Shown: positions 6,748 to 25,333 of the stretch, in pieces
Numbering within the stretch: the first letter of the stretch is position 1
Layout: every line of letters begins with the position of its first letter
Position numbers and translations under genes: made by a program
The notes under the pieces: model-generated
Seen by the model: only the letters and a program-made list of their open reading frames with translations
The model's database searches: none
Told to the model about the DNA's origin: nothing
NCBI RefSeq assembly: GCF_011683955.1
Contig: NZ_JAAQPI010000004.1
Span: forward strand, 496,001-560,000
Direction: 5' to 3'
From: Pseudomaricurvus alkylphenolicus
Lineage (GTDB): Bacteria; Pseudomonadota; Gammaproteobacteria; Pseudomonadales; Cellvibrionaceae
DNA: 64,000 bases

Positions 6748-7374
6748 TATATAGACCTCACAGTAATTAGTAGTTTTTATTCTCTCTTTGCCAGGTGCGA
6801 AATCTGACTGGGGTCTCTAACACTCCCTGTATAAGACCCGACCACGCATATGGTCAAGCCCGCTTTCGAGACTTCGTTCTGTCTTAGAAGGCCCAATTCC
6901 CACTTAGGCCAGAATACTCTAAGAACATCAGGTCCGCTGTAGCAGATTTATATATAGTTGACGGGACCTATCTTCACTGGTTGCCGCTATCATTCCCATT
7001 TAATTCAGTTTAGCGTATCCCTTGCTCACTGAATGTACGATTATCCGGGAGTAATGCTGCTGTACCCTCCTCTGATTTAAATTGCGTTGGAACCTCTTCC
7101 ATCGAAACCAATGACACTGTGTTGCCTTGCGAAGGCTAAGCGTGGACGAGGGATAAGAACTTACATAGAGTGTATCAACTCGGAATAGGTCTGATGTGAT
7201 CCCTAGGGGACCAAATTCTGGTATCAGATGACCTATCGCCAAGCTTGGATCTGCAGAACTGAATAACCAGGGGATGAGGTGCCCTCTAGCCCTGAATATT
7301 CGCTCTAATCTGCAACAGATGAATTGGAAAGGAGAACGCCGTAGCCTGGAGAGATAGCCGGTTGGTTCGATCAT
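6748..7374. other. Intergenic region between TonB receptor and AraC regulator
   Basis: About 630 bases. A 124-codon frame on the minus strand begins directly at the AraC stop codon, but its composition (many Arg, Ser and Cys residues, no domain) is not that of a real protein and it lacks a ribosome site. The promoter of the TonB receptor should lie just above 6748. I see no RNA gene, and no clear terminator for the regulator. Confidence 0.5.
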
Positions 7375-8436
7375 TCAAATACAGTGGGTCTTCCGAAATT
7401 GGCTGGGTGTGAGCAAGGTTGACCGCCTGAATGCCCGTTCAAACGAGCTTCGTTCCGTATAGCCCAACCGGTCAGAAATTGTCGTAACCGTTTGTTCCGT
7501 GTGTATCAAATAGTGTATCGCCAATAGAAACCGGCAGTAGGACAATAGACCGGAGTAGGAAACTTTGTTCGCCAGTAACTTTCTCTGCAGGTTTTTGGTG
7601 TTCGAATGTAACATTTCCGCTACCCGTGTGATGGGCAGCTTTGGATCTTCCGGCTCCTGGTTATGGTAAAAATCCAGAATCGCAGAGGCCACCTGATTGG
7701 TAAAGCGGTTTCCCCGGCAGCAATCATTAATCCCTTGCTCCAGATCCTCTTTGGCAATACTGAAAATAATGTGATTGCTGTTGGGCATTGCCACATCCAA
7801 CGTCTTGGCATCGAATACAATCAAGTTCGTTTGTGCGCCGTAATATACCGGTGATCCAAAGAAGTCCTCGCTGGGTTTCAATTCTTCGGGTTGTTGATGT
7901 GAGAAATAGACTTCTTCAGGAACCCAATCAACCCCCGCTGCACCCCGAATCAGGTTCGTATAACTACTGGTAATAAACTCATTGAACTGCCTGTGGGGTT
8001 TCAGGTCGGCATTATTAATTTGAAAACTCAGATACGCCCATTGGTCGATAATATGCAGCTGGATATCGAAATAGGTGATATAGAGGTTTTCATATTGAAT
8101 CAGTGCACCCAGACCCGCCCTCAAGGTTGAAGCAGCCTGTACCAGCGAGTAAACCGGCCCGTAGCGATGGAGATCGGGGGCCACCGAGTGCCTGTATACA
8201 ACGTAGGGATCTATACTTTCTTTCCAAGCTTCCTCCATGATCTCCAACTCGACGGCGAAGGGGACATAGCTGGGAATCGAGCTAAGATCATCCAGATCAA
8301 AGGAATATTTTTCTAGAACGGCGTCCAGATTGGCTCCCTGACTAATGAATATATGAATGAGTATGACAAACTGAGAACGTCTGATCATTGAGTGATTGCC
8401 GTCGTCGGCGAGAGAGAGCAAGGGCTTTTGACTCAC
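7375..8436 (-). CDS. AraC family transcriptional regulator (arabinose-binding-like N-domain)
   Basis: 353 residues. The N-terminal two-thirds resembles the ligand-binding domain of OruR/ArgR-type AraC regulators. The C-terminal region (about 260-350) has two helix-turn-helix motifs, with VAEMLHSNTKNLQRKL and ISDRLGYTERSSFERAFRRSTLLTPSQFR matching the AraC signature. The start is a GTG at 8436; an ATG 16 codons in is an alternative. It lies between the TonB receptor and the P450/ligase/oxygenase genes on the same strand, so it is the likely local activator of the cluster in response to its substrate. Confidence 0.88.
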   Translation of the reverse strand: MSQKPLLSLADDGNHSMIRRSQFVILIHIFISQGANLDAVLEKYSFDLDDLSSIPSYVPFAVELEIMEEAWKESIDPYVVYRHSVAPDLHRYGPVYSLVQAASTLRAGLGALIQYENLYITYFDIQLHIIDQWAYLSFQINNADLKPHRQFNEFITSSYTNLIRGAAGVDWVPEEVYFSHQQPEELKPSEDFFGSPVYYGAQTNLIVFDAKTLDVAMPNSNHIIFSIAKEDLEQGINDCCRGNRFTNQVASAILDFYHNQEPEDPKLPITRVAEMLHSNTKNLQRKLLANKVSYSGLLSYCRFLLAIHYLIHTEQTVTTISDRLGYTERSSFERAFRRSTLLTPSQFRKTHCI

Positions 8437-8643
8437 TGGAATACCAAATCTGAATAGGTTATCAGTAGTAGTTAACGATCATGGCTAGGAGTTAGGTCAG
8501 ATATCCACACCATGAGTCAGAGTATAGGTCCATCCCTGAGCTTTCGCTAGCTGGAGAAAGGCAGATTATCCCCCTAACCTGCCATCTGAAGATCACCATT
8601 CTCGACCTTTGGCTCACTATACATATTATTGATTTTGGTACCT

Positions 8644-9849: not shown

Positions 9850-9909
9850 CGGCTGCTCCTATTAACTCGTTTTTGACGACGTAAAGTCCTTTGGTGGTGA
9901 AAATCACCT

Positions 9910-11445
9910 TTATGAGTAAACTTCTCTCAGATCACGCTTTAGCACCTTGCCTGATGCATTGACCGGTAAAGAGCCTACGAAATGATAATGTTTGGGGCGC
10001 TTGTAAGGTGCCAACTGACCCTCGACATATTGATTGAGCTCACCTTCACCGATTCCATCCGCATCGGGCGTCAGTACAACAACAGCGCAAACAGCTTCAA
10101 TCCACTTGTTGTCAGGAACGGCGATAACGGCAACATTTTCCACCTTGGGATGGCGTAGCAGCGCCTCCTCAACATCCCGGCTGGCAACCAATACACCTCC
10201 GGTGTTGATCACATCTTTGATACGGTCAACGATGTACAGATAGCCATCTTCATCGATAGTAGCGAGATCCCCAGTGCGAAACCATCCGTCCTGGAACGCC
10301 TCGGCGGACGCCGTTTTGTTGTTCCAATAGCACTGGAGTAGTTGAGGCGAACGATGTACGATTTCCCCTTTGCCCCCAGGCTTCACATCGTTGAATTCCT
10401 CATCGACAACACGAGTCTCCACATTGATCACAGGTCGGCCTATAGAACCGGGCTTTGTCAAGTGGTCTTCATGCTGAAGACAGGTAGCCAGTGGCGAAAT
10501 TTCCGTCTGTCCATAAAGATTGAATAACCTTCCTTGCGGCATCAAGGTCAACAAATCGTCGATCACTGGAACTGGCATAATGGATGCACCATAGTAAAGC
10601 TTCTGCAGTTGGCTCAGGTCCTGATCACGAAAAGCCGGGCTTGCCAAGAAGTTTATCCACACCGTCGGCGGCGCGAAAAAGGCGTTGATGGAATATTGCC
10701 TAAACAAGGCAATACACTGCTCCAGGACTGGCTTTTCCACTAAATAAGTAAAAGCCCCCATGAGCAAGTAAGGCATGACGAAACAGTGCATCTGAGCGCA
10801 ATGGTAGAGCGGTAACGCAGCGATTTGTCGATCCTGACTTTTTATATCACAGTGGATAATGCAACTGAGGTGCTGCATAAATAGCGCTCTATGAGTTAGT
10901 ACAACGCCCTTTGGGTTTCCGGTTGTTCCAGAGGTATAAATAATCTGTGCAATATCGTCGTCCGACACATCATAGCCGTCAAGAACGACACCCGTCCCAC
11001 TATTGGCCATATGGATAATGTCCAAAACATTACCGCCATGCAGAGTCCCCATAACTTCGATGTCATTGTTTGTGGATAATTGGTCCACTGTGCTTTGGAG
11101 AAAAGTATCGTGGAACAACGCGCATGAACCGGAGTCCTCAAGCAGGAAGCATACCTCCTCAGCATTGAGCGAATAGTTAATCGGTACATGGATAGCACCG
11201 ATCTTGCAGCAAGCCAACCATAGGATCATATACCCATCGGAATTCATCCCCAATGCAGCAACACGATCTCCATGCCCTATTCCCTTAGCTCTTAGGTGCT
11301 CTGCTACATTATCTACCGCTTGAGCCAAGGCCGAATATGTCCATTGCCTGGCATAAAACTCTAATGCGACATTTTCCGGGTTTTTCCCGGCAGATCGTGA
11401 GAATGCGTCAAAAAGTGTGTTGCGTGTGGCCCTAGATACATCCAT
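9910..11445 (-). CDS. Acyl-CoA synthetase (AMP-dependent ligase) 1
   Basis: 511 residues of the ANL superfamily. The phosphate-binding loop IIYTSGTTGNPKGVV, the adenine motif NLYGQTE, the hinge RTGDLATIDEDGYLYIVDR and the C-terminal catalytic Lys in SGKVLKRDL are all present. I start at the ATG at 11445, preceded by AGGAG at eight bases; an upstream in-frame ATG at 11466 lacks a ribosome site. It should activate a carboxylic acid to its CoA ester. It lies between the P450 and the oxygenase-like gene on the same strand, probably in one transcript. Confidence 0.92.
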   Translation of the reverse strand: MDVSRATRNTLFDAFSRSAGKNPENVALEFYARQWTYSALAQAVDNVAEHLRAKGIGHGDRVAALGMNSDGYMILWLACCKIGAIHVPINYSLNAEEVCFLLEDSGSCALFHDTFLQSTVDQLSTNNDIEVMGTLHGGNVLDIIHMANSGTGVVLDGYDVSDDDIAQIIYTSGTTGNPKGVVLTHRALFMQHLSCIIHCDIKSQDRQIAALPLYHCAQMHCFVMPYLLMGAFTYLVEKPVLEQCIALFRQYSINAFFAPPTVWINFLASPAFRDQDLSQLQKLYYGASIMPVPVIDDLLTLMPQGRLFNLYGQTEISPLATCLQHEDHLTKPGSIGRPVINVETRVVDEEFNDVKPGGKGEIVHRSPQLLQCYWNNKTASAEAFQDGWFRTGDLATIDEDGYLYIVDRIKDVINTGGVLVASRDVEEALLRHPKVENVAVIAVPDNKWIEAVCAVVVLTPDADGIGEGELNQYVEGQLAPYKRPKHYHFVGSLPVNASGKVLKRDLREVYS

Positions 11446-11514
11446 GCTCAGCGCTCCTGGTTTCATTTCGAACGGTATTGATTGATAGTAAGTAGACCCA
11501 TTGATTCATCACTA

Positions 11515-12714
11515 TTATTCTGAAACCTTCTCAAGATCATTCAGTATCATTTTGTTAAAATGGTGATGCATTTTGTCCCAGAAGGGTGCGTAAAAGTGCT
11601 GACGGTAGACAGGCGATTTTCTGGCTCGCTGCACCGATTCAATGATGCGACCGTCTTCTTCGTTCGCTTCGTTAAACATACCGGTCAACATCTGTACCTG
11701 TTCATGATGGTCGCTGCCTTCTTCTGAACAGTTGGTGAGAAATGTATAGCGCATGGTAGTCTGAGCGGGGCCATTCGGTAACGCGAATCCGATCATGATG
11801 AATTCCGGAAAGACTGACACATAGAAGTTGGGGTAGAGCGTGCCAAACATGGTGCGCTCCGGGGCCAACTCCGGTTCTTTACCAAGATGTGGTAAACCAA
11901 ATGGAGGATAGGTGTTTAAGAAATCTGACTTTCTAAACTCCAGCGCCAGATAATTTTCATCAATCAGATCTTTCCATGCTCTCTGCTTTTCACCGGACAA
12001 CCTTGGTACTTCCTGCGATATCGCATAGGCGGCGTGCACAAAGTTTTCATGCAGAACATTGATGCACTTGTTCTCAAAAAACGTCTTCCAGTTGGTATTG
12101 GCGGAACAAGCGGCCGTTTGCAGCGCTCCATTCACAACGCTGCTTCCGAGTTTTTCCAGGTCATACTCATCCAATGACCGGATCAACGGTGCAATGTATT
12201 CGGAAAATGGCTGATGTTGCTCAGACAGATTGACAAACACGGCTCCTAAATAGGTCTCGCAGGATACCGCTATCAGATCCACTTCCATGTGGGCCAAAAA
12301 GTCGGAGTTGCCCTGGGGCGTTCCATCCCAGTAAGGCGTTTCGATAAGCTTGCCTTCCAGATCAAACTTCCATCCATGGTAGGGCGACGTCAGCTTTTCC
12401 TGATTGGTTGCTCGTTCTAAGGCAATTTCACAGCCATCGTAGGCACAAACATTGTGAAACACCCGAAGCACGCGGTCCATACCTCTGACCGCGAGCAATG
12501 GCATTTCACCGATATCGAATGGCAATACATCGCCGGGCTCAGGAACTTCGGCCTCGAACAAACAAGCCACCCAATTCTTTTGGTAAATAGCCTCAATTTC
12601 AAGTTGGTAAAAGCCATCGTCGGTATAGCACTTGGCGGGCAGCGTCAGTGCCCGTTCTATGGGTGCCCTGATGGTATCACGCACTTCACGAGGTAATAGG
12701 TCCTCTAATTGCAT
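11515..12714 (-). CDS. Ring-hydroxylating oxygenase alpha-subunit-like protein with a degenerate Rieske site
   Basis: 399 residues with the domain order of Rieske oxygenase alpha subunits. The Rieske pattern CxH-17-CxxH is present in spacing but reads Cys90-Ala-Tyr92 and Ser110-Pro-Tyr-His113, so one His and one Cys ligand are replaced. The catalytic domain keeps His222, His227 and a candidate third ligand Asp354, but the Asp/Glu that normally bridges the two metal sites (three residues before the first His) is Asn219. A conventional [2Fe-2S] Rieske centre is therefore unlikely. It may be an iron oxygenase with another electron source, or a non-oxygenase. It is co-directional with a CoA ligase and a P450. 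Confidence 0.88.
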   Translation of the reverse strand: MQLEDLLPREVRDTIRAPIERALTLPAKCYTDDGFYQLEIEAIYQKNWVACLFEAEVPEPGDVLPFDIGEMPLLAVRGMDRVLRVFHNVCAYDGCEIALERATNQEKLTSPYHGWKFDLEGKLIETPYWDGTPQGNSDFLAHMEVDLIAVSCETYLGAVFVNLSEQHQPFSEYIAPLIRSLDEYDLEKLGSSVVNGALQTAACSANTNWKTFFENKCINVLHENFVHAAYAISQEVPRLSGEKQRAWKDLIDENYLALEFRKSDFLNTYPPFGLPHLGKEPELAPERTMFGTLYPNFYVSVFPEFIMIGFALPNGPAQTTMRYTFLTNCSEEGSDHHEQVQMLTGMFNEANEEDGRIIESVQRARKSPVYRQHFYAPFWDKMHHHFNKMILNDLEKVSE

Positions 12715-13039
12715 AGCACTCGCATCCTCAGTCGTCGAATCCAGTGGAAAAGATAGGCATTGATCTTATCTCAACCGGAAGACCGGGATTCAGACCTTCT
12801 GAGACGTCATTTTGGCTCCAAATGACGAAATAACACACACTGTTTAGGGCCTTTATTTTGCACACGACAGGACAAACTAATGTCGCCTAGGGATATCATC
12901 GATACGGTTTTGGCTGCGTATCATCGTCCGAATACTACGCCGTCAATAACACTATCTAAGAAACGGTCTGCAATGTAACGCAGCATCTGTGGAAAACGCC
13001 GCAGAAGATGTCTGTAGACCTTCAGGGGAGAATAGAATA
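12715..13039. promoter_or_regulatory. Divergent promoter region with operator-like dyad
   Basis: This 325-base gap separates the oxygenase-like gene (-) from the second acyl-CoA ligase (+). Within it, positions 12805-12827 read CGTCATTTTGG, two bases, then CCAAATGACG. This is a near-perfect dyad with a one-base slip, a good candidate for a regulator site controlling both arms. Confidence 0.5.
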
Positions 13040-14557
13040 ATGCAAACGTTAGGGCAGATCCTTTCAAGTTCAGCTGCCGAGTACGGAGAGAAGATCGCCT
13101 TGGTGATCGGGGAAACGTCCTGGTCGTATCGAAGACTATCCGGATTAGCAAACCGAATGTCGAATTCCTTGGCTGAAATGGGTATAAAGCAAGGTGACCG
13201 GGTGACCCTCTACGGTGCCAACAGCCTTGAATGGATCGTCAGCTACTACGCGATATTGCAGGTGGGAGCGGTCGTTAACCCCATTAACGTCATGTTGACG
13301 GCAGAAGAAGTTAAGTATGTTCTTGGTGACTGTGGCGCTAAAGCCATTATCGCATCCGTGGAAAAAGGGTCGGCCTTGGTTGGGCAGTTGCAGGAAACGG
13401 ATGTCGAAGCCCTGATTCTTTATGGTAACGACATTCCTGCTGGTGCAGTTGCATTTGATGATTTGATCTCTAATGGCAGTGATCATTACGACATCAAAGT
13501 GCCACCGCTGGAGAGTCTATCCACCATTTGTTACACCTCTGGCACCACTGGCAAACCGAAAGGTGCAATGCTGTCTCATCGCGCTGTGGCAACCAATATT
13601 GCCATGACCAAATTGATGCATGGTCGCACTGTCAATGACGTCGCGGTAACAGCCCTTCCCTGCCCCCACGTTTACGGCAACGTGGTGATGAGCGCAATGT
13701 TTCAGAGCGGTGCGAAGCTGGTGGTTCATCCGGTGTTCGACCCCGATGTCATGCTGACGTCGATGCAGAAGCATCGCGCAACTGTCTTTGATGGTGTGCC
13801 GACCATGTATATGTTTATGTTGAATCATCCTCAGGCGGCCAGTTTTGATCTGACTTCCTTACGTCTTTGCACAGTGGGCGGACAGCCGATGCCGCCTGCA
13901 AAAATGAAAGCAGTCGAACACTTATTTGGTTGCAACCTGATTGAGTTGTGGGGCATGACCGAACTTGGTGGACTCGGCACAACCTTCGCATGGAATGGAG
14001 AGTATAAACACGGTTCGATCGGAGTACCGATTCCCTATGTCAGTGCTCGAATCGCAGACATTGACAATCCATCAGAAGAAATGCCACGAGGAGAAGTTGG
14101 AGAGTTGATGATCCGGGGTGGCATTGTAATGGACGGCTACTTCGGCAATGAACAAGCAACAAGAGAAACGATAGATCAAGATGGCTGGCTTCATACCGGA
14201 GATCTGGCCTCGATGGATAAGCAGGGTTACATCAGCATTGTTGATCGCAAGAAAGATATGATCCTGACGGCCGGGTACAACATCTACCCTGCAGAGATTG
14301 AGCGAGTACTGTCTTCTCACAGCGACGTGGCGCTGGCGGCAGTGGGCTCAGTCCCTGACGAACTGAAAGGTGAACTCGCTAAGGCCTATATCATTGCCAA
14401 GGAAGGTTGCTCTCCTACACAGGAGGAGATTATCACCTTCTGCAGAGAACACCTTGCCGCCTACAAAGTGCCGCGTGCGGTGCAATTCGTGGATGATGTT
14501 CCCAAAACCAGCACTGGAAAAATCATGCGGCGAGAGCTCCACAAACTCAACGCTTGA
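13040..14557 (+). CDS. Acyl-CoA synthetase (AMP-dependent ligase) 2
   Basis: 505 residues of the ANL superfamily. ICYTSGTTGKPKGAM is the phosphate loop, ELWGMTELGG the substrate/adenine region, HTGDLASMDKQGYISIVDRKKD the hinge, and TSTGKIMRREL carries the catalytic Lys. The start at 13040 follows AGGGGAGA; the frame is open 17 codons further upstream but without support. It heads a plus-strand run of ligase, aldehyde dehydrogenase and amidase with short gaps, so it is probably the first gene of that operon. The acid it activates is unknown. Confidence 0.92.
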   Translation: MQTLGQILSSSAAEYGEKIALVIGETSWSYRRLSGLANRMSNSLAEMGIKQGDRVTLYGANSLEWIVSYYAILQVGAVVNPINVMLTAEEVKYVLGDCGAKAIIASVEKGSALVGQLQETDVEALILYGNDIPAGAVAFDDLISNGSDHYDIKVPPLESLSTICYTSGTTGKPKGAMLSHRAVATNIAMTKLMHGRTVNDVAVTALPCPHVYGNVVMSAMFQSGAKLVVHPVFDPDVMLTSMQKHRATVFDGVPTMYMFMLNHPQAASFDLTSLRLCTVGGQPMPPAKMKAVEHLFGCNLIELWGMTELGGLGTTFAWNGEYKHGSIGVPIPYVSARIADIDNPSEEMPRGEVGELMIRGGIVMDGYFGNEQATRETIDQDGWLHTGDLASMDKQGYISIVDRKKDMILTAGYNIYPAEIERVLSSHSDVALAAVGSVPDELKGELAKAYIIAKEGCSPTQEEIITFCREHLAAYKVPRAVQFVDDVPKTSTGKIMRRELHKLNA

Positions 14558-14585
14558 ATACAAGACTCCTACCAGGAACCCAGAC

Positions 14586-16013
14586 ATGATCAATTTTGAT
14601 ACTGATTATTCCATGACTATTGACGGTAAACCAGTGTTTACCGACAAAACCCATCCCGTCTATAACCCCGCGAATAAAACCGAGATTGCAACCGTGCCAG
14701 ACTGTTCAGAAGAACAGTTGAACGCAACAGTTAGCAGCGCCCGTCGTGCGTTCCGAGCTTGGAGCAAATTACCCCTGTCCGAACGTCAGCAGAAGGTAGC
14801 CGCACTGGGTGAACTGCTGGAATCCAATGCTGAAGCATTTATGGCATTGCTTACCCGAGAACAGGGAAAACCTCGTTACGGTGCCGAATGGGAGATATAT
14901 GGCTCTGCCGCCTGGCTCAAAGAGATTGCCACCCAGACCTTGGAAGTCGAAGTGTTGGAAGACAATGCCCAACGCAAAGTGATAACCCGCTTTACGCCGC
15001 TGGGCGTCGTTGGCGCCATCGTCCCCTGGAATTTTCCGTTGTTGCTGGCTGTCTGGAAGATTGCCCCGGCATTGGTAGCTGGCTGCACCGTAGTGCTAAA
15101 ACCCTCACCCTATACGCCGTTGTGTGATCTTAAGTTTGTTGAGCTTGCACAGCAGGTACTGCCACCGGGCGTATTGAGCTGCGTGACTGGAGTCGACGAT
15201 CTGGGTAAATGGATGACCTCTCACCCGGATATTAACAAGATCGCTTTTACTGGCTCTACTGAGACTGGCCGTCATGTGGCACGCTCATCGGCGGAAACCA
15301 TCAAACGGGTGACATTGGAGTTGGGCGGAAATGATCCTGCCATTGTGTTGCCCGATGTCAACCTCGACACCATTGGCGAGAAGCTCTTCTGGTCGGCGTT
15401 CCAAAACAATGCTCAATTTTGCAATGCCACCAAACGGATCTACATACACGAGGACATCTATGATGAAGTTCGCGATGCAATGGTCCGTTTTATCAATGAA
15501 AACGTAAAAGTTGGTGATGGCGCAGACCAGGGTACCACCTTGGGTCCGATTCAGAACTCGATGCAATATGAAAAAGTGAAGGAGTACTTTGCCGACTGTA
15601 AGAGTAACGACTACAAATTCGCGTCGGGTGGAGAAATCGACGGCGATGCACCCGGTTGGTTTGTTCCCGTCACTCTGGTGGATAACCCTCCTGAAAACTC
15701 TCGAATCGTTGCGGAAGAGCCCTTCGGCCCCATTTTGCCGCTGTTGAAATGGTCTGATGAGGCGGATGTTATTGAACGTGCGAATGACACTATCTATGGC
15801 CTTGGCGCTACCGTCTGGGGCGAGGATTTGGAAGTGGTCCAGCGTATTGGTGAGCAGCTGGAAGCCGGCACCGTGTGGTTGAATGAGGTCCATCAATACT
15901 CGCCCCATCAAGCCTTTGGCGGCCACAAGCAGTCCGGACTGGGTTGCGAAAATTCCATCCACGGATTGCTGGAGTATTGCAATTGGCAAACGATCACTCT
16001 TTTTAAAGCGTAG
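14586..16013 (+). CDS. NAD(P)-dependent aldehyde dehydrogenase
   Basis: 475 residues, usual length for the family. The fold markers are PWNFPLL (about 147-153), FTGSTETG, the general-base Glu245 in LELGGND and the nucleophile Cys279 in NAQFCNATKR. The ATG at 14586 is 28 bases after the ligase stop. The frame continues open upstream across the ligase end, but that part is out-of-frame shadow. It oxidises an aldehyde to an acid, which the adjacent ligase could then activate. The aldehyde is not identifiable from sequence. Confidence 0.93.
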   Translation: MINFDTDYSMTIDGKPVFTDKTHPVYNPANKTEIATVPDCSEEQLNATVSSARRAFRAWSKLPLSERQQKVAALGELLESNAEAFMALLTREQGKPRYGAEWEIYGSAAWLKEIATQTLEVEVLEDNAQRKVITRFTPLGVVGAIVPWNFPLLLAVWKIAPALVAGCTVVLKPSPYTPLCDLKFVELAQQVLPPGVLSCVTGVDDLGKWMTSHPDINKIAFTGSTETGRHVARSSAETIKRVTLELGGNDPAIVLPDVNLDTIGEKLFWSAFQNNAQFCNATKRIYIHEDIYDEVRDAMVRFINENVKVGDGADQGTTLGPIQNSMQYEKVKEYFADCKSNDYKFASGGEIDGDAPGWFVPVTLVDNPPENSRIVAEEPFGPILPLLKWSDEADVIERANDTIYGLGATVWGEDLEVVQRIGEQLEAGTVWLNEVHQYSPHQAFGGHKQSGLGCENSIHGLLEYCNWQTITLFKA

Positions 16014-16076
16014 GTGAGGCAGGTATCCAGGCGCACTCGACTATTGTCTATTAAACCTGTAAACCCGGAGCCACCT

Positions 16077-17531
16077 ATGAGCAACTACGTTTACTTGTCA
16101 GCAACTGAGATTGCAGACTCGATACGACGCGGAGAGGTCAGTTCAACCGCCGTCGTCAAGGATCATATTGAGCATATTCGCAAGCACAATCCGAAACTTA
16201 ACGCTTTCGTTCTCTTGCTAGAAGAAGAAGCGTTAGAACAAGCAGCGGTGTGCGATCAGGAAACATTGGCGGGTATCTCAAGGGGTGCTCTGCACGGCGT
16301 ACCGATTTCGATTAAAGAACAATTCTGGATGTCGGGCACCAAAACCACGGTTAATTCCAATATCTTTGAAGATTGGACTGCCCCGGAAGATGCTCTGGTT
16401 GTAAAAGCACTTCGAGAAGCTGGCGCCATCATATTGGGTAAAACCAATGTTGCGAAGGAGTTGTCGGACTTTCAGGTGTCGGGCGATATTTATCCCGACG
16501 GTAAAAACCCTTACCAGCTGGATTATTCCCCAGGCGGAAGCGGCGGAGGCTCTTCTGCGGCATTGGCCAGTGGGATGGCGCCCATCGACCTGGGCGTAGA
16601 CTTTGGAGGATCGATCCGAAATCCCGCCAGTTTCTGTGGTCTCTATGGCCTCAAGCCCACAGATGGTGCTGTATCCTGCCACGGTATTTTTCCCAAGCTT
16701 GAAGATTATCGGGGCCATGTCACCCATATGATGCAACCAGGTCCGATGGCAAGATGTCCGGAAGATCTCGAATTGGTTTGGCACACTATTCGCGGCCCGC
16801 TAAAGGGTGACCGGGATGTCCCAAGGATCCATTGGAGCGGACAAGAAAGCAAACGACTGCAAGACTACAGTATTGCCTGGATTGACCGCTGGCCAGATTT
16901 TGATACCAGTGAGAACACCAAGTCAGTGATTCATGATGTTGTTAGCCGACTTACCGAATTACGTTGCCGCACGACACACTTCGAGTCTGAAGGCGATTTA
17001 CATTCACGATCATTGTCTGTGTTCTTTCGACTATTCGGTCAAATCGTGTCTCAGAATGTGCCCTTCTTTATCAAGCCACTTCAGAAGCACGGAATTAAAA
17101 AGGGTCTACTAAAAGGCGTAAAAAAGTTCCATTCAGACCTGAATACCGGCTTCTCGGATAGCTTTCTAGGTTATTCAGAAACCATGGGACTTCGTGCGGG
17201 AATTACCGATGAATGGGAGACAATTTTCGAATCGTTCGATCTTTTGATTTGCCCGGTCAGTTATGGTCCCGCCTATAAGCGATGTCGCAAAGGCGATCCT
17301 CTCGAATATCAGGGACAGCAGCTTAGTTATCTGAATTATGCGTTCCCGTTTTTGGCGTGTTTTAACGCCAGTGGGCACCCGGCAATCCATATTCCCTGTG
17401 GGCTCAACAGTGAAGGGCTGCCGATAGGCGTTCAGGTAGTCGGTCCGCTATGGAGTGAGGATCGTTTAATTCATTTTGCCAAATTGCTTGCAGGAGAAGT
17501 CGATGGTTATGTCAGGCCGGATGGATTTTGA
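16077..17531 (+). CDS. Amidase signature family hydrolase
   Basis: 484 residues with the complete amidase Ser-cisSer-Lys triad: Lys80 in PISIKEQ, the cis-Ser in GGSGGGSS near residue 155, and the nucleophile Ser179 in FGGSIR. I start at the ATG at 16077 with CGGAG upstream; a GTG at 16014 touches the aldehyde dehydrogenase stop but has no relatives in the added residues. It hydrolyses a carboxamide to an acid plus ammonia or amine, which would link the oxidative genes upstream to the nitrogen-releasing operon downstream. Confidence 0.9.
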   Translation: MSNYVYLSATEIADSIRRGEVSSTAVVKDHIEHIRKHNPKLNAFVLLLEEEALEQAAVCDQETLAGISRGALHGVPISIKEQFWMSGTKTTVNSNIFEDWTAPEDALVVKALREAGAIILGKTNVAKELSDFQVSGDIYPDGKNPYQLDYSPGGSGGGSSAALASGMAPIDLGVDFGGSIRNPASFCGLYGLKPTDGAVSCHGIFPKLEDYRGHVTHMMQPGPMARCPEDLELVWHTIRGPLKGDRDVPRIHWSGQESKRLQDYSIAWIDRWPDFDTSENTKSVIHDVVSRLTELRCRTTHFESEGDLHSRSLSVFFRLFGQIVSQNVPFFIKPLQKHGIKKGLLKGVKKFHSDLNTGFSDSFLGYSETMGLRAGITDEWETIFESFDLLICPVSYGPAYKRCRKGDPLEYQGQQLSYLNYAFPFLACFNASGHPAIHIPCGLNSEGLPIGVQVVGPLWSEDRLIHFAKLLAGEVDGYVRPDGF

Positions 17532-17601: not shown

Positions 17602-18342
17602 ATGAGTTTAAATCTTACCAATCCCATAGCTGGCGAAGGTGGCTACACCACCACACTGCCAGCGGGCACTCATTGGTCGCTGGTAATACGCCGCGGCATG
17701 GGACTGACCCTCACCGACCTCGAAGGTGGGGCTAACGTTGGCCTGCTGATGTACAACCCCACGCAGTTGAGCGAAAAGTACAACGCACCCGACAGTCTCA
17801 AGTGTCAGCACACGTTTAAACTTACCCGTAGCCACTGTCTGTATTCCGATATGGGCCGCATTTTCTGTTCAATTATCAAAGACAGCTTTGGCTGGCACGA
17901 CACCGTGTGTGGCAACAGCCACGCCAGTCATATCGAAGCGTGCTGGGGCAACCGCGACTACCAAAACGACCGCAATGAATGGCAACAGAACGGTTACGAC
18001 AGCTTTTTGGTGGAGTTGGCCAAGTACGAGCTCACCCGTCGCCACATGGCGGCTAACGTTAACTTTTTCAGCGAAATCAGCACCGACGACGAGGGCAACC
18101 TGCAACTCAGTCGCCAGGCCCAGGCCGGAGACCGAGTCACCCTGCGTTTCGAAATGGACACCTTAGTGGTGCTGCACACCTGCCCTCACCCTCTCAATCA
18201 TGCGGATCAATACCCTCGCTCTCCAGTACAGATCACACTTGCTCCAACAGCGCCGCTGCAGGCCGACGATGAATGCCTGAACCTCTGTGACGAAAATCGT
18301 CGCGGTTTTGCCAACAACGCCCTTTATCACCTGGGTCAATAG
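17602..18342 (+). CDS. DUF1989 protein, likely carboxyguanidine deiminase subunit (UAAP-type)
   Basis: 246 residues of the urea-carboxylase-associated DUF1989 family. DSFGWHDTVCGNSH is the diagnostic motif, with His and Cys residues likely to bind metal or take part in catalysis. Paired DUF1989 proteins of this kind (CgdA/CgdB) were shown by others to deiminate carboxyguanidine to allophanate, so the older label urea amidolyase-associated protein is probably misleading. It is first in a four-gene operon, 70 bases after the amidase, and the composition turns visibly more GC-rich here. Confidence 0.85.
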   Translation: MSLNLTNPIAGEGGYTTTLPAGTHWSLVIRRGMGLTLTDLEGGANVGLLMYNPTQLSEKYNAPDSLKCQHTFKLTRSHCLYSDMGRIFCSIIKDSFGWHDTVCGNSHASHIEACWGNRDYQNDRNEWQQNGYDSFLVELAKYELTRRHMAANVNFFSEISTDDEGNLQLSRQAQAGDRVTLRFEMDTLVVLHTCPHPLNHADQYPRSPVQITLAPTAPLQADDECLNLCDENRRGFANNALYHLGQ

Positions 18343-18388
18343 GCCGGCAAGACCACCACCCTTATAGCGAACACTACAGGATACGACC

Positions 18389-19030
18389 ATGATAGTTCAC
18401 AGCAACTTAAGCCCTTGCAGCGCTGTCCATCGTCAGGTAATCGAGGCCGGCGACTATGGCATACATACCGTCAAGCAAGGTCAGGTACTGCGCATCCTTG
18501 ATCTCGAAGGAAATCAGGCCGCCGACACCCTGTTTTACAGTGCTGCTGACCCCAGTGAGCGCTACAGCGCCATGGACACCGTGCGTGAACAGGGCAACGT
18601 CTATCTTACCGTCAACTCTATTTTGAAAACCAACGAAAACAATAACATGTTGGAAATTGTCGCCGATACCTGCGGTCGCCACGACACTCTGGGCGGCGCT
18701 TGTGCCACAGAATCCAATACAGTGCGTTACGATCTGGAAAAGCGCTGCATGCACGCCTGCCGCGATAGTTGGATGCTGGCCATTCAGGAGCGCGAGGAGT
18801 TCGGACTGACGAAAGCAGATATCACTCACAACATTAACTTTTTTATGAACGTGCCCATCACCGCCGAAGGCGGCCTCACCTTCGCTGACGGTATTTCCGG
18901 CGCTGGTAAATACGTGGAGCTGAAAGCAATGATGGATGTGATCGTGTTGATCTCCAATTGTCCCCAGCTCAACAATCCCTGCAATGGCTACAATCCCACG
19001 CCGATTGAATTGCTGGTATGGGACCAATAA
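18389..19030 (+). CDS. DUF1989 protein, likely partner carboxyguanidine deiminase subunit
   Basis: 213 residues, second DUF1989 paralogue of the operon, with the strong signature [20 protein letters not shown]. This member and the preceding one would form the heteromeric deiminase that converts carboxyguanidine to allophanate and ammonia. The ATG at 18389 follows ACAGGATACGACC. Its stop lies 11 bases before the ATG of the carboxylase, which points to tight co-transcription. It could also be annotated as urea carboxylase-associated protein by name transfer. Confidence 0.87.
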
Positions 19031-19041
19031 CAGGTAAGACT

Positions 19042-22000
19042 ATGAAAATACAACGGCTTTTTAACACGGTACTGATTGCCAACCGTGGCGCCATTGCCAC
19101 CCGCATTATCCGTACCCTGAAACGACTCGGCATACGCGCGGTAGCGGTCTACAACGAGGCCGACGCCCAATCCCTGCATGTGCAGCAAGCCGATGAGGCT
19201 ATCAACCTGGGCTCCGGCAGTGCCGCCGACACCTATCTAGACGTAGAGAAAATTCTCCAGGCCGCCGCCGACACTGGCGCCGAGGCCATCCACCCCGGAT
19301 ACGGTTTTTTGAGCGAAAACACTGACTTCGTGCAGGCCTGTGAAGCTCAGAACATTGCCTTTATCGGACCCACCGCCCAACAGATGACACTGTTCGGACT
19401 CAAGCACCAGGCCCGCGAGTTGGCGATACAGGCCGACGTGCCCCTGGTGCCCGGGTCACCTCTGCTGCAGGAACTGAGCGAAGCCCTGGATTGGGCCAAC
19501 GACGTGGGTTACCCGATCATGCTGAAGAGCACCGCCGGCGGTGGCGGTATTGGCATGCAAGTGTGCCACGATCACGACGAGTTAAAAGGCGCTTGGCAAA
19601 GTGTGAAGCGCCTTGGCGAAAACTACTTCGCCAACGACGGTGTGTTCTTGGAAAAGTATGTGGCTAACGCCCGTCATATTGAAGTGCAGGTTTTTGGCGA
19701 TGGCCAGGGAACGGCGATTTCCTTTGGCGAACGCGATTGTTCCGCCCAGCGGCGCAATCAGAAAGTGATCGAGGAAACCCCTGCGCCAAACCTGGCTGAA
19801 GAAAAACGCGAGCAACTGCACCGTACAGCTGAACGCTTGATGGCTTCGGTTAACTATCGCAATGCCGGTACCGTGGAGTTTATTTACGACGTCGACAGTG
19901 ATCAATTTTATTTCCTTGAAGTGAACACCCGTCTGCAAGTTGAGCACGGAGTTACTGAGGAAGTGTGGGGCGTAGACCTGGTGGAACTGATGCTCAAGCA
20001 GGCCGCCGGTGTACTGGGCGACTTGCAGGCTTTGAAAGCCCAGTGCCAACCTCGCGGTCACGCTGTACAAGTGCGTGTTTACGCCGAAGACCCGAACCAG
20101 GACTTCCGACCCAGCGCCGGTTTGCTCTCGGAGGTGAGTTGGCCAGAGGCGGAGGGCCTGCGCATTGACCACTGGATTGAATCAGGCACCCAAGTACCCG
20201 CCCTGTTTGATCCCATGCTGGCGAAGGTGATCGTGCACGCTAACAACCGTGAAACAGCACTGGCCCGGCTCAACGCCCATCTAAGCGAGAGCGCCATCTA
20301 CGGGATCGAGACCAACCGCGACTATGTGCGCAGTGTTTTGCAGTCCCCGGTATGCACCGATGGACGACTGCTCACTCGCAGCTTGGCCACACACAGCTTT
20401 TACCCGGCGACCTTCCAGGTGCTCAATGCCGGCACCCAAACCACGGTCCAAGACTACCCTGGTCGTCAGCACCTATGGCATATCGGAGTCCCACCATCGG
20501 GGCCCATGGACTCCCTGTCCTTTCGTCTCGCCAACCAACTGGTGGGCAATGACAGTGAGGCCGCCGCCCTGGAAATCACCCTTAACGGTCCCACCCTGCA
20601 ATTCAACCGGAACTGCTGCGTTGCGATAACCGGTGCGTCAATAGAAGCCGAGCTGGATGGCCAGGCGGTAGCCTTGCAGCAAACCCTGTACATCAACGCC
20701 GGCCAAACCCTGCGCCTGGGCAAAGTGCAAAACAGCGGCAGCCGCTCTTATTTGGCAGTGGCCGGTGGTATCCAATGCCCGGATTACCTGGGCTCCAAGT
20801 CTACCTTTGCCCTCGGCCAGTTTGGGGGGCACGCAGGCCGTGCTCTGAGGGTAGGAGACGTGCTGCACTTCGCGCCCGATACCACGCAGCCCCCCATCCG
20901 TAAACTGAGCGACAGGCAGCAACCGTCCCTACCCAAGTGCTGGACCCTGCGTGTGATCTACGGTCCCCATGGCGCCCCGGACTTTTTCACCGACACTGCT
21001 ATTGAAGAATTTTTCAACCATGAGTGGGAGGTACACTACAATTCCAGTCGCACCGGCGTGCGCCTTATCGGACCCAAGCCTGAATGGGCGCGCGAAACCG
21101 GCGGGGAAGCGGGCCTGCACCCCTCAAACATCCACGATAACGCCTACGCCTTTGGCACCGTGGATTTTACCGGCGACATGCCCGTCATCCTCGGCCCGGA
21201 CGGCCCCTCCCTCGGCGGTTTCGTCTGCCCCGCCACGGTGATTCAAGCCGACTTGTGGAAGCTGGGCCAATTGAAAGCCGGCGCCAGGCTTCGCTTTCAA
21301 CCGGTGAGTTTGGCGCAAGCATTAGCGCTGCAAGAACAACAGGAAAAACTGATTGCCGAACTGGGCGACCAGCGCCAGATCGATGCCCCAACAGAGATCG
21401 CACCGCTCACCATTAAAGAGCTGGGCAGCCCCATCGTCGCCCGAGGCAGAGTGGCAGACGAAGAAGTGGTCTACCGTGTGGCTGGCGATCACTTCCTGTT
21501 GATGGAACTGGGTCCCCAACAACTGGATATAGAACTGCGCTTCAAAGTGCACGCCTTGATGTTGTGGCTGCAGGATAACCCGCTGCCGGGTATCAAAGAG
21601 CTCACACCTGGCATTCGCTCCCTACAGATTCACTACCAGCCGTTGACACTGGACATAGATAGCCTGCTCACTCACCTGCAGGAAGCCTGTGAGAGTTTGC
21701 AGCAGGATCAAGATTTGAGCGTTCCCTCGCGCATTGTACATCTGCCTTTGAGTTGGGACGACGACGCTTGCCAAGAGGCCATTAGAAAGTACATGCAGTC
21801 GGTGCGCCCCGACGCACCCTGGTGCCCCAGCAACCTGGAGTTTATTCGCCGTATCAACGGCCTCGACAACATCGAAACGGTCAAGCGCATTGTTTTCGGC
21901 GCTGCCTACCTGGTGATGGGGCTCGGCGATGTGTACCTGGGCGCACCGGTTGCCACCCCTCTGGACCCACGTCAGCGCTTGGTGACCACCAAATACAACC

Positions 22001-22668
22001 CGGCCCGTACCTGGACTGCGGAAAACTCCGTCGGCATTGGCGGCGCCTACATGTGCGTGTACGGCATGGAGGGCCCTGGTGGTTACCAATTTGTCGGGCG
22101 CACCCTGCAGATGTGGAACCGCTATCGCCAGACCGAAGCCTTCAGCAAGCCCTGGCTACTGCGCTTTTTCGACCAGATCCGATTTTACCCGGTGAGCCCG
22201 GAAGAGCTGGAAACCATTCGCCGGGATTTCCCACTGGGCAAGTACCCGCTGAAGATCGAGGAAACCGAGTTCAACCTCGCCGACTACAACGACTTCTTGC
22301 AGCGGGAAGCCGATTCCATTGCGGCCTTCGAGCGGCAGCGCGAAACGGCCTTTGCTGAGGAGCTGGCAGACTGGAAAGCCAAGGGTCTGCTCACTTACCA
22401 GCAGGACGAAGGCGAGGCCAGCGAGGCGCCCGAACTTACCCTGCCGGAAGGTATCACCGGCGTAGATAGCCCGGTGTCCGGCAGCGTTTGGGAAATTCTG
22501 GTGGAGCCAGGCCAGCAGGTGGAAGCCGGCGAGCCGCTGATGATTCTTGAATCCATGAAAATGGAAATTGAAGTGCACGCCTCCTGCGCCGGCCGTATCG
22601 ACAATATATTGAAAGACAAAGGCCAGGCCGTGACCGCCGGGCAGAGCCTGATGTGGCTGGGCGCCTGA
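19042..22668 (+). CDS. Guanidine/urea carboxylase (biotin-dependent)
   Basis: 1208 residues carrying all modules. These are biotin carboxylase (about 1-450; NRGAIATRII start, ATP-grasp with MLKSTAGGGGIGM), KipA/AHS2-type carboxyltransferase (from about 460), the AHS1-type part (to about 1070), and a biotinyl carrier domain with ESMKM (biotin Lys about 1173). It carboxylates urea or guanidine using ATP and bicarbonate. The DUF1989 pair upstream favours guanidine. The ATG at 19042 follows AGGTAAG, and the frame opens eight codons earlier without a ribosome site. Full length, no damage seen. Confidence 0.93.
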   Translation: MKIQRLFNTVLIANRGAIATRIIRTLKRLGIRAVAVYNEADAQSLHVQQADEAINLGSGSAADTYLDVEKILQAAADTGAEAIHPGYGFLSENTDFVQACEAQNIAFIGPTAQQMTLFGLKHQARELAIQADVPLVPGSPLLQELSEALDWANDVGYPIMLKSTAGGGGIGMQVCHDHDELKGAWQSVKRLGENYFANDGVFLEKYVANARHIEVQVFGDGQGTAISFGERDCSAQRRNQKVIEETPAPNLAEEKREQLHRTAERLMASVNYRNAGTVEFIYDVDSDQFYFLEVNTRLQVEHGVTEEVWGVDLVELMLKQAAGVLGDLQALKAQCQPRGHAVQVRVYAEDPNQDFRPSAGLLSEVSWPEAEGLRIDHWIESGTQVPALFDPMLAKVIVHANNRETALARLNAHLSESAIYGIETNRDYVRSVLQSPVCTDGRLLTRSLATHSFYPATFQVLNAGTQTTVQDYPGRQHLWHIGVPPSGPMDSLSFRLANQLVGNDSEAAALEITLNGPTLQFNRNCCVAITGASIEAELDGQAVALQQTLYINAGQTLRLGKVQNSGSRSYLAVAGGIQCPDYLGSKSTFALGQFGGHAGRALRVGDVLHFAPDTTQPPIRKLSDRQQPSLPKCWTLRVIYGPHGAPDFFTDTAIEEFFNHEWEVHYNSSRTGVRLIGPKPEWARETGGEAGLHPSNIHDNAYAFGTVDFTGDMPVILGPDGPSLGGFVCPATVIQADLWKLGQLKAGARLRFQPVSLAQALALQEQQEKLIAELGDQRQIDAPTEIAPLTIKELGSPIVARGRVADEEVVYRVAGDHFLLMELGPQQLDIELRFKVHALMLWLQDNPLPGIKELTPGIRSLQIHYQPLTLDIDSLLTHLQEACESLQQDQDLSVPSRIVHLPLSWDDDACQEAIRKYMQSVRPDAPWCPSNLEFIRRINGLDNIETVKRIVFGAAYLVMGLGDVYLGAPVATPLDPRQRLVTTKYNPARTWTAENSVGIGGAYMCVYGMEGPGGYQFVGRTLQMWNRYRQTEAFSKPWLLRFFDQIRFYPVSPEELETIRRDFPLGKYPLKIEETEFNLADYNDFLQREADSIAAFERQRETAFAEELADWKAKGLLTYQQDEGEASEAPELTLPEGITGVDSPVSGSVWEILVEPGQQVEAGEPLMILESMKMEIEVHASCAGRIDNILKDKGQAVTAGQSLMWLGA

Positions 22669-22702: not shown

Positions 22703-24514
22703 ATGACAGCACACAACCTCAGCCTCGGCGCACTGCGCCAGGCCTACGAAAGCGGCAGGCAAACCGCGCGTGAACTGATCACCGAATTGCGTCAACAGGC
22801 CCTTGCTCAAAGCGACTACAACGCCTGGATACACCTCCTGAGCGAAGTCGAGCTGGAGCCCTACCTGGCGCGACTGGACAGTGAATGCATCGATAACCTG
22901 CCACTTTATGGTGTGCCCTTTGCCATCAAAGACAACATCGATCTGGCCAACATCCCCACCACCGCCGCCTGCCCCGACTTTACCTACACCCCGGATGAAT
23001 CCGCGGTCGTGGTGGCGACCTTGATTGCCGCCGGCGCGGTACCTTTGGGTAAAACCAATCTCGATCAATTCGCCACCGGCCTGGTGGGTGTGCGCTCTCC
23101 CTATGGCGAGGGCAAAAACAGTTTGAATCCGGACTACGTCTCCGGTGGTAGCAGCGCCGGTTCCGCCATCGCCACCGCCCTGGGCCAGGTGAGTTTTGCC
23201 CTCGGAACAGACACCGCCGGCTCCGGCCGAGTACCTGCGGTATTCAACAACCTCATCGGCCACAAACCCAGCAAGGGCCTGCTCAGCAACCGCGGCCTAG
23301 TGCCCGCCTGTCGCAGTTTGGACTGCATCAGTTTGATGACCCTCAATTGTGAAGACGCCGCCGCCCTGATGGACATCGTCGCCCAATACGATCCGGAAGA
23401 TACCTACTCACGCCCCAATCCACACTTCAACAGAGCACGGTATTTTGGCGGACATCCGTCTGATAGTTTCTGTTTTGCCATTCCCGCCGAGCCCTTCTTT
23501 GCGGGCAACCGTGAAACCCAGGCCCTGTTCGAACACAGCGTTGAACGACTCTGCGCCCTGGGTGGCGAAGTGAAGCGCATCGACTTCGAACCCTTCGAAG
23601 AAGCGGCGCGCCTGCTCTATGAAGGGCCCTGGGTTTGCGAGCGCGCCCTGGCCACCGAGGGAGTTCAGGCCAGCAAAATGCTGCCTGTGATTGCCGAAAT
23701 CATCAGTCAGGCACAAAGCAAAAGCGGCACCGACGCCTTCGCCGCCCAATACCGCCTGGCTGAACTCAAGCGCCACTGCAACAGCTTAATAGCCGAGTTT
23801 GATTTTGTGTTAACACCCACTTGCCCCACTCAGTTCACCCGCGCCGAATTGGCCGAGCAGCCCATCGCCCGTAACTCCGTCCTCGGTACCTACACTAACT
23901 TCGTCAACCTGCTGGACTATGCCGCCACCGCCGTACCCGTGGGTTTTACCCGCTGTGGAGTAGGCTGGGGCGTGACCCTGTTTGCGCACGCTTTTAGCGA
24001 TATCAAGTTGCTGACTTACGCCAACCTGCTTCACCGCGACCGCGCTTTGCCCTTGGGGGCCACCGGTATCAAAGCCCCTCCTCGCACAGCCACTCCCGGC
24101 CCGCAGACGCCGAGCGAAACCGTCGAGCTGGTGGTGTGCGGCGCGCACCTGGAAGGCCAGCCGCTGAACTGGCAACTGACCGAACGGGGCGGAACACGCC
24201 TGGCGCAAATCTACTCCGCGCCCGCCTACCAGTTATACGCGTTGAGCGACGGCAAACGTCCGGGCATGGTGCGCAACGAAGAACAAGGCGCGGCTATTGA
24301 GGTGGAAGTGTGGTCCCTGCCCATGGACAGCTTGGGCAGTTTTGTGGCCGCCATACCCTCTCCGCTTGGCATCGGTAAAGTGGAGCTGGAAGACGGCCGT
24401 TGGCTCAGCGGATTTATCTGCGAAGCCAGTGGACTGATCAACGCCATCGACATCACCGCCTTTGGCGGCTGGCGTGCCTGGCGGGCCCACAAAACTGCGG
24501 AATCAAAACCGTAA
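22703..24514 (+). CDS. atzF: Allophanate hydrolase
   Basis: 603 residues, typical two-domain length. The N-terminal amidase-signature domain has Lys76 (FAIKDN), the cis-Ser near 150 (SGGSSAGSA) and the nucleophile Ser174 (TAGSGR). The C-terminal domain (about 470-600) is the allophanate-hydrolase-specific extension. It splits allophanate to two ammonia and two CO2 (through N-carboxycarbamate), completing the guanidine or urea route started by the carboxylase 34 bases upstream. GGGAG precedes the ATG. Confidence 0.93.
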   Translation: MTAHNLSLGALRQAYESGRQTARELITELRQQALAQSDYNAWIHLLSEVELEPYLARLDSECIDNLPLYGVPFAIKDNIDLANIPTTAACPDFTYTPDESAVVVATLIAAGAVPLGKTNLDQFATGLVGVRSPYGEGKNSLNPDYVSGGSSAGSAIATALGQVSFALGTDTAGSGRVPAVFNNLIGHKPSKGLLSNRGLVPACRSLDCISLMTLNCEDAAALMDIVAQYDPEDTYSRPNPHFNRARYFGGHPSDSFCFAIPAEPFFAGNRETQALFEHSVERLCALGGEVKRIDFEPFEEAARLLYEGPWVCERALATEGVQASKMLPVIAEIISQAQSKSGTDAFAAQYRLAELKRHCNSLIAEFDFVLTPTCPTQFTRAELAEQPIARNSVLGTYTNFVNLLDYAATAVPVGFTRCGVGWGVTLFAHAFSDIKLLTYANLLHRDRALPLGATGIKAPPRTATPGPQTPSETVELVVCGAHLEGQPLNWQLTERGGTRLAQIYSAPAYQLYALSDGKRPGMVRNEEQGAAIEVEVWSLPMDSLGSFVAAIPSPLGIGKVELEDGRWLSGFICEASGLINAIDITAFGGWRAWRAHKTAESKP

Positions 24515-24547: not shown

Positions 24548-25318
24548 ATGACAATAAAGATAGCCGATAAATGGTTCGAAATACGTAAATTGGGTGACGG
24601 CATTACTCATATATGGGAGCCTCATGTGCATCCATTGGTGCGTTGTAACATATGGCATGTTCGTGGCTCTGAGCGAGACATGCTTGTGGACACAGGGCTA
24701 GGTATTGCGAGTTTGAAGGAGGCTGCCCGTGAGATTTTTGATAAACCATTGGATGTTGTTACGACTCATACTCACTATGACCACATAGGTGGGCATTGTG
24801 AATTCGATAACTGCACAGTCCATGAGGCCGAAGCGGGGGAACTATCCAGCCCGGATGTAGAAGCCTCTTTGGAGGGTGATGCCGTTAAAGAATTTCTGGA
24901 TTCCATTGGCCAAACGGGATATGAAATAGAAGGTGATTTGATATCGCAGTTACCGTACGAAGGTTATGATCTCAAGCAATACCGTGTTTCTCCAACCAAA
25001 CCGACGCGTATTGTTAAAGATGGCGATACCGTCGACCTCGGTAATCGTCAATTCAAGATTGTTCATCTACCGGGGCATTCACCCGGAAGCATAGGTCTCT
25101 GGGAAGCATCTACTAAGATTTTATTTTCTGGTGATGCCATCTACGATGGTCCTCTGGTTGATAAGCTGCCAGGTTCGAATGTCGAAGAATATGTCGAAAC
25201 CATGTATAAGCTTCGTGAGCTGCCGGTGAGTGTCGTGCATGCGGGTCACGAGCCAAGTTTTGGACGAGAGCGACTTGTTGAGATCTGCAATGCTTACATA
25301 AACGGGAAGAAAGCCTAG
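24548..25318 (+). CDS. MBL-fold metallo-hydrolase
   Basis: 256 residues of the metallo-beta-lactamase fold. Zinc ligands are visible in THTHYDHIGGH (HxHxDH), HLPGHSPGS, FSGDAIYDG and the late VHAGHEP. The substrate is unknown; family members hydrolyse thioesters, lactones and phosphodiesters. It follows allophanate hydrolase by 33 bases but has a clearly lower GC content, so it may belong to the older surrounding cluster rather than to the guanidine operon. It converges with the MalT-like regulator. Confidence 0.85.
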   Translation: MTIKIADKWFEIRKLGDGITHIWEPHVHPLVRCNIWHVRGSERDMLVDTGLGIASLKEAAREIFDKPLDVVTTHTHYDHIGGHCEFDNCTVHEAEAGELSSPDVEASLEGDAVKEFLDSIGQTGYEIEGDLISQLPYEGYDLKQYRVSPTKPTRIVKDGDTVDLGNRQFKIVHLPGHSPGSIGLWEASTKILFSGDAIYDGPLVDKLPGSNVEEYVETMYKLRELPVSVVHAGHEPSFGRERLVEICNAYINGKKA

Positions 25319-25333
25319 GATCAGGGTGGCCAG

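Follow-up and report, generated by a model that had tools for sequence, protein, structure and literature searches.

P0001, a protein of 399 amino acids encoded on the reverse strand at positions 11515..12714 of a 64,000-nucleotide stretch of the Pseudomaricurvus alkylphenolicus genome (hereafter the window), is a Rieske-oxygenase-like protein by its domains and predicted fold, and is very probably cluster-less. The family to which it belongs forms a single clade within the superfamily of Rieske non-heme iron oxygenases and, as far as sequences can tell, has dispensed with the cluster. Throughout the five groups of Rieske oxygenases, the residues coordinating the cluster and the iron are described as highly conserved and as an identifying feature (PMC10952381). 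Members of the family discussed here very probably do not bind a Rieske [2Fe-2S] cluster, and the ligands of the catalytic iron are kept in 24 of 24 members, a pattern that favours a presumed metal-dependent role. A conserved clade that has the fold and the iron site, and neither the cluster ligands nor the bridging acid, represents a naturally occurring knock-out of the route by which electrons reach the iron. The reading that we prefer, and to which we give somewhat better than an even chance, is that of a cluster-free iron oxygenase that operates independently of a reductase, with its electrons arriving either with hydrogen peroxide or with the substrate. The family makes reductase-free oxygenation by the Rieske fold testable, which would be of use in biocatalysis, a field in which the compatibility of redox partners has been named as an obstacle (PMC12445004).

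Altered cluster ligands and intact iron site

The open reading frame of P0001 could be placed exactly, and its product matches both the Rieske domain (PF00355, E 2.5e-11) and the catalytic Ring_hydroxyl_A domain (PF00848, E 4.2e-17) above the Pfam cut-offs. Solved Rieske oxygenases are relatives at the sequence level. The best NCBIfam match is GbcA, the glycine betaine monooxygenase, which has the same domain order, but the score of 112.9 bits falls far short of the equivalog cut-off of 670 (NF058607), and the family differs from GbcA by the loss of ligands. Of the features that mark a Rieske alpha subunit, the fold and the 2-His-1-carboxylate site are present in P0001, and the CxH...CxxH motif and the bridging Asp/Glu are absent.

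The changes are concentrated in two boxes. Box I, canonically CxHRGx, reads C90-A-Y92-D93-G94-C95 (12430..12447, reverse strand; codons TGT for C90, TAC for Y92, GAT for D93, GGC for G94 and TGT for C95), and box II, canonically CPYH, reads S110-P-Y112-H113 (12376..12387, reverse strand; S110 TCG, H113 CAT). In the alignment with YeaW and HcaE of Escherichia coli, Y92 takes the place of a ligand His, S110 that of a ligand Cys and N219 that of the bridging Glu/Asp. The region from 12034 to 12060 on the reverse strand encodes N219 (AAT), the iron ligands H222 (CAT) and H227 (CAC), and the family-specific E223 (GAA); the carboxylate ligand D354 (GAC) lies at 11653..11655 on the same strand. The first-pass annotation, which had read the four cluster positions as Cys, Tyr, Ser and His, had regarded the 2-His-carboxylate set as intact and had seen Asn219 in place of the bridging acid, is borne out on all of these points by the codons and the alignments. 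C95 (12430-12432) stands at the position where bc1-type Rieske proteins, with their CTHLGC box, have a disulfide cysteine, and Tyr112 occupies the place of its partner cysteine.

The same positions were compared in 24 near-complete family members and 20 canonical oxygenases, 18 of the latter from family-carrying genomes and the other two being YeaW and HcaE. Partial or broken sequences (L034, L059_1, L066, L067, L018 and smaller pieces) were left out of this comparison and of the tree, as was L037, which is the same gene as L012. Position 92 is Tyr in all members and His in all canonical proteins, position 93 is Asp as opposed to Arg or Lys, and Cys at position 95 is invariant in the family and found in 0 of 20 canonical sequences. 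Position 110, invariably Cys in the canonical set, is Thr (11), Val (9), Ser (2) or Gly (2) in the family, and position 219 is Asn in 24/24 members, against Asp (12) or Glu (8) in the canonical proteins. E223 is again common to all members and to none of the canonical proteins. His113, His222, His227 and Asp354, on the other hand, are identical in all 44 sequences. D93 and C95, which define the box CxYDGC, together with E223 are invariants beside the ligand loss that the earlier reading had not mentioned. Six fragments were tabulated apart; L034 and L059_1 have Tyr92, Cys95 and a residue other than Cys at 110, L059_1 has Ser at 223, and in L066 positions 222 and 223 are Arg and Gln.

Position 90 is Cys in all 20 canonical proteins and in 17 members, and Val in the other 7, so that the family can do without this last Cys as well. 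With C90 missing from these seven members too, no usual four-ligand cluster can be common to the family. A different metal site in the place of the cluster, with C95, Y92, H113 and sometimes C90 as ligands, would account for the invariance of the first three residues and for the restriction of C95 to the family; we nevertheless find it improbable, since position 110 is variable (Thr, Val, Ser or Gly), the seven members with Val at 90 are left with three of these candidate ligands, and C95 may be conserved for structural reasons. Similarly, the loss of two cluster ligands and the bridge from every member might indicate a non-redox protein, in which a ligand is bound or hydrolysed at the iron or in the empty pocket, or which acts as a scaffold. 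This is unlikely, because H222, H227 and D354 are retained in all members although these relatives share no more than 35-51% identity with P0001, and such retention implies that the metal site works.

That cluster and bridge had been lost jointly, as a functional change and not through decay, had been proposed from the single sequence; the joint loss is seen in all 24 members, and purifying selection (below) favours a change of function over decay. Relatives with a CxYDGC...TPYHGW pattern, which the first-pass annotation had expected, were found as well, among them a paralogue in the same genome that is 51% identical to P0001 and carries CPYDGC, TPYHGW and NVLHENFVH. Whether close homologues keep the two lost ligands had been put forward as a refuting test; H92 or C110 is kept in none of the 24. 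A local mutation is ruled out by the paralogue, which has the same states except for Thr in the place of Ser110, and by the presence of Tyr92, a residue other than Cys at 110 and Asn219 in all 24 members. It follows for annotation practice that names such as "ring-hydroxylating oxygenase alpha subunit", when assigned automatically, can cover proteins unable to bind an ordinary Rieske cluster.

Evolution and predicted structure

In a tree computed from an alignment in which the ligand columns were kept, the 24 members form one clade with a branch support of 100/100 against 18 canonical proteins, from which a long stem (1.07 changes per column) separates them. The ratio omega was 0.08-0.30 in nine of 11 pairs, those with finite dS, the top value stemming from a pair with a dS of 0.04. 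The family is under purifying selection. Values of pN for the Rieske-like domain are about those for the catalytic domain; the two are alike in constraint, and the Rieske-like domain must therefore still have some role. Stops inside family matches from three other genomes (G148, G472 and G477) could be cited in favour of gene decay, but for P0001 itself decay or an error of sequencing has a negligible probability, as the window copy is open throughout, its substitutions are common to 24 members and selection is purifying; decay is thereby discarded together with local mutation.

The AlphaFold2 model of P0001, a single-chain prediction, has a mean pLDDT of 84.3 and a pTM of 0.88, and is weak only at the loops 220-236, at the active site, and 375-378. 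Three structures share the best match within one Z unit: CntA (Z 34.0; 342 residues at an rmsd of 3.0), the stachydrine demethylase 3vca (Z 33.9; 364 residues at 3.4) and 3n0q (Z 33.7; 363 residues at 3.5); the alignment to CntA extends across nearly the whole length of the model. CntA and stachydrine demethylase are placed in Group V, which has been linked to quaternary ammonium substrates (PMC10952381). The predicted similarity to CntA/YeaW and stachydrine demethylase includes the whole-length fold, the H-H-D iron site and the fold of the Rieske-like domain, at about 22% sequence identity; the family differs in that H92, C110 and the bridging Glu are replaced by Y, by T/V/S/G and by N, and in the new D93, C95 and E223.

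Distribution of the family

A scan of a genome collection with one genome per species (84,980 species) yielded 11 relatives at 32-50% identity, from Gammaproteobacteria (including the isolate Leucothrix arctica), alphaproteobacterial MAGs, Actinomycetota and one Latescibacterota MAG. More members were found through the genomes of these first relatives, and the family as a whole is spread over Alpha- and Gammaproteobacteria, Actinomycetota and Latescibacterota. Its occurrence is sporadic in the surroundings of the window genome, with one positive in six genomes of its genus, one in 144 of its GTDB family (E<=1e-40) and one in 369 of its class, and also in the order of G145 (1/298). It is more frequent in the alphaproteobacterial order of G150 (10/16, E<=1e-90) and the family of G147 (3/17); all of these counts hold at the thresholds used and include the centre genome among the positives. 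Among viral contigs, 16 stretches fitted a pattern and none of them encoded a relative. On plasmids, 917 records matched, and the 20 matches listed were 24.6-28.6% identical. Among the titles and abstract openings listed by searches of the open-access literature, none described such a family; subscription papers were mostly outside this scope, and the outcome is no proof of novelty.

Broken or partial copies were seen in L059 (3064-4274), where an intact copy is present as well, in L034 (3855-5069) and in L066 (9611-10252), which suggests recent duplication and loss in some lineages. In Leucothrix arctica (L011, 1-15285), the family gene has as neighbours genes for a TauD-family protein, for a heme-oxygenase-like protein (Haem_oxygenas_2) and for a 2252-aa protein that falls with AMP-binding enzymes in blastp, an ensemble resembling a cluster for a natural product.

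Electron supply

Electron transfer in CntA depends on the bridging Glu205; the E205 mutants that were made were all reported inactive, and another study is cited for the loss of activity in E205D and E205Q (PMC7948474). With Asn at the bridge and two cluster ligands absent, both known parts of the electron path are gone in the family. The question is then whether a cluster could be supplied by another protein. The NdmCDE complex, the caffeine N7-demethylase, provides the precedent: NdmC is an oxygenase chain without a Rieske cluster of its own, described as lacking the cluster of the N-terminal core Rieske domain, and the Rieske domain of NdmD supplies one and is essential for electron transfer to NdmC (PMC10380055). 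The family differs from NdmC in that the fold of the Rieske domain is kept and conserved. If the family functioned in the same style, the cluster of another protein would dock and donate electrons to the family iron, and YeaX-like reductases are indeed encoded in five of the seven genomes searched, including that of Leucothrix arctica (31% identical). We consider this route unlikely. The bridging acid is Asn in every member, and the E205 mutants of CntA are inactive. Rieske motifs in the called neighbour genes of 27 loci occur only in two ordinary oxygenases (L063 and L065), so that a Rieske-domain reductase of the NdmD kind was not found alongside, neither by motif at these loci nor by phmmer with YeaX at 25 loci.

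Leucothrix arctica also bears on partner subunits. Six genomes were searched with PF00848, a model that other kinds of oxygenases would escape, and in this isolate (G146) the family protein is the sole match, which further speaks against supply in trans. The Latescibacterota MAG G148 has a single match too, but a stop codon interrupts this copy and part of the genome may be missing from the MAG, so the argument from a lone match rests on Leucothrix arctica; the other four genomes gave 8 to 22 matches. A heteromer with a canonical alpha subunit can thus be rejected as a general need, and a mixed trimer with a canonical subunit of the PF00848 type is excluded in Leucothrix arctica unless its genome record is incomplete.

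The absence of a reductase gene near the family gene, in contrast, proves nothing. Genes resembling YeaX, HcaC or HcaD were not detected at E<=1e-8 near 25 family loci, apart from which a weak HcaD match (9.2e-7) occurs in L033, and they were equally missing near the 20 control loci around canonical oxygenases, for which reason this argument was dropped.

Proposed mechanism and gene neighbourhoods

In the reductase-independent oxygenase that we propose, the mononuclear iron would still function as an oxygenase centre, but the two electrons would come in with a small molecule and not through a chain of reductase and Rieske cluster. CntA is reported to oxidise carnitine with H2O2 when the reductase is absent (PMC7948474), and the peroxide shunt of naphthalene dioxygenase is reported to proceed at the mononuclear iron with no involvement of the Rieske cluster (PMC6678576). 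Taken together, these observations indicate that the remaining hardware is in principle enough for peroxide chemistry. In the leading version, H2O2 would be the oxidant, and the peroxide shunt known as a side reaction of Rieske oxygenases would have become the main reaction.

A possible source of peroxide is suggested by the genes around family members. Neighbours were counted at 25 family loci and at 20 control loci hand-chosen from canonical matches, with genes called by a custom script. The family set includes the partial members L034, L035 and L067; two near-duplicates (L013, L043) and a broken copy (L066) are not part of it. Since family loci extend up to about 10 kb on each side and controls about 8 kb (control L093 is only 3.8 kb in total), the comparison slightly favours the family, and the loci are not independent. 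Under these conditions, a monoamine-oxidase-like flavin gene is present near eight of the 25 family loci and none of the controls (E<=1e-20; Fisher one-sided p 0.005), with a weak match of E 6.5e-9 in control L085. The best PDB relatives of the neighbouring oxidase are a monoamine oxidase and putrescine oxidases. Its gene directly adjoins the family gene on the same strand in L015, L016, L033, L036 and L058, with an overlap of a few bases in L033; it overlaps the broken family copy in L059, is separated by one gene in L017, and in L067 is partial and on the strand opposite to a partial family gene.

In several lineages, this co-encoded flavoenzyme could supply the peroxide and at the same time make the aldehyde or imine that serves as substrate. 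Peroxide use with an amine oxidase as the source in several lineages is a tentative proposal. Seventeen of the 25 loci, that of the window included, have no amine oxidase nearby, and the single match in the window genome (E<=1e-20), with 27% identity, is encoded on the same contig at a distance of about 350 kb; the coupling is therefore not universal, and the oxidase may be just another step of a pathway. Carried to its end, the peroxide version would turn the family into natural non-heme peroxygenases on a Rieske-oxygenase fold that have abandoned NADH, reductase and cluster, some lineages obtaining both H2O2 and substrate from the monoamine-oxidase-like enzyme; E223, which is peculiar to the family and adjoins an iron ligand, would then provide acid-base catalysis. 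We regard this more specific proposal as rather doubtful. To our knowledge, no natural 2-His-1-carboxylate peroxygenase has been described.

Within the reductase-independent reading, the peroxide version competes with one in which an electron-rich substrate gives O2 all four electrons at the iron, as in extradiol-type and other 2-His-1-carboxylate dioxygenases, after which hydrolases would take the cleaved product. This substrate-fed version is a rival solely to the peroxide version, and we rate it nearly equal, that is, equally tentative and slightly less favoured. It requires no oxidase at the 17 loci that have none, and three kinds of hydrolases recur near the family and at no control locus: an alpha/beta hydrolase (5/25), of which the best NCBIfam matches, all below cut-off, are PcaD-type enol-lactonases, a metallo-beta-lactamase-fold (MBL) protein (5/25; Fisher one-sided p 0.04), and an amidase (4/25). 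The conserved residues, however, so far give no sign of direct substrate binding to the iron, and canonical Rieske oxygenases are not known to bind their substrate to the iron, which counts against substrate-fed chemistry.

Other neighbours that were restricted to family loci encode TetR regulators (5/25), LLM proteins (4/25) and GNAT proteins (3/25). ABC ATPases (8/25 as compared to 2/20 for controls), M24 peptidase/creatinase-type proteins (4/25 and 1/20) and aldehyde dehydrogenases (2/25 and 1/20) are less specific. At L009, on the same contig as L036, an agmatine-deiminase family gene comes next after the family gene on the same strand, and the gene that follows we read as encoding a putative nitrilase-type N-carbamoylputrescine hydrolase. 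Near the paralogue in the window genome (L020, 11227-18273), a single 1015-aa CofC-CofG-CofH fusion for F420/FO synthesis, with all three parts above cut-off, adjoins an NADPH:F420 reductase gene (npdG) and two genes for LLM-type proteins. This locus suggested F420H2 as an electron donor, which was set aside as a main rival since LLM neighbours occur at just four of the 25 loci.

Gene context in the window and possible substrate

Downstream of the P0001 gene, on the same reverse strand, lie an AMP-binding, acyl-CoA ligase-like enzyme (9910..11466) at a distance of 48 bp, a cytochrome P450 (8644..9849) 60 bp further, and an AraC-type regulator (7375..8436), all assigned by Pfam. Facing the P0001 gene are eight genes on the forward strand with gaps of at most 70 bp. 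They start with a second AMP-binding enzyme (12989..14557; Pfam), an aldehyde dehydrogenase by Pfam (14454..16013), of which the start codon is uncertain and the 25 NCBIfam matches listed are all below cut-off, and an amidase (16077..17531) that was recognised by clustering, its NCBIfam matches being below cut-off. Loci L060, L061 and L062 carry relatives of this amidase close to their family genes.

The next genes form a single same-strand run (17602-24514) of a DUF1989 pair, a urea/guanidine carboxylase and an allophanate hydrolase. The two DUF1989-type proteins are encoded at 17602-18342 and 18389-19030 (together 17602..19030), the first recognised by Pfam and the second grouped with it by blastp. 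The urea carboxylase family protein at 19018..22668 scores 1847.8 bits with TIGR02712 (cut-off 1303.85), and the allophanate hydrolase-like amidase at 22703..24514 has the domains PF01425 and AH_C. DUF1989 beside such a carboxylase is a marker of guanidine degradation, and if this rule holds, the gene at 19018..22668 encodes a guanidine carboxylase. The eighth gene (24548..25318) encodes an MBL-fold protein, identified by Pfam and blastp, that shares 51% identity with an MBL-fold protein encoded close to the paralogue in this genome; at 24.5 kb, it is outside the range in which neighbours were counted and comes in addition to the five loci mentioned above.

On the basis of these neighbouring genes and of the nearest folds, a cationic nitrogen compound, such as an amine or a guanidino compound, may be the substrate of the family, and in the window the product may be passed on to the guanidine/urea operon; this assignment is tentative, and short of an even chance. 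A similar arrangement is known for the methylguanidine hydroxylase MgdH, also an iron oxygenase encoded with a guanidine carboxylase pathway, although MgdH differs from the family in being 2-oxoglutarate-dependent and its operon has guanidine riboswitches (PMC12508155). In the window, no guanidine riboswitch was detected at the Rfam gathering threshold, and none in the region 7000-26000 at E values up to 5.

Further along, between positions 29427 and 39946 of the window, two genes that blastp groups with putative TonB-receptor-like proteins each stand beside a pair of mutually related genes, and this region looks like a duplicated module.
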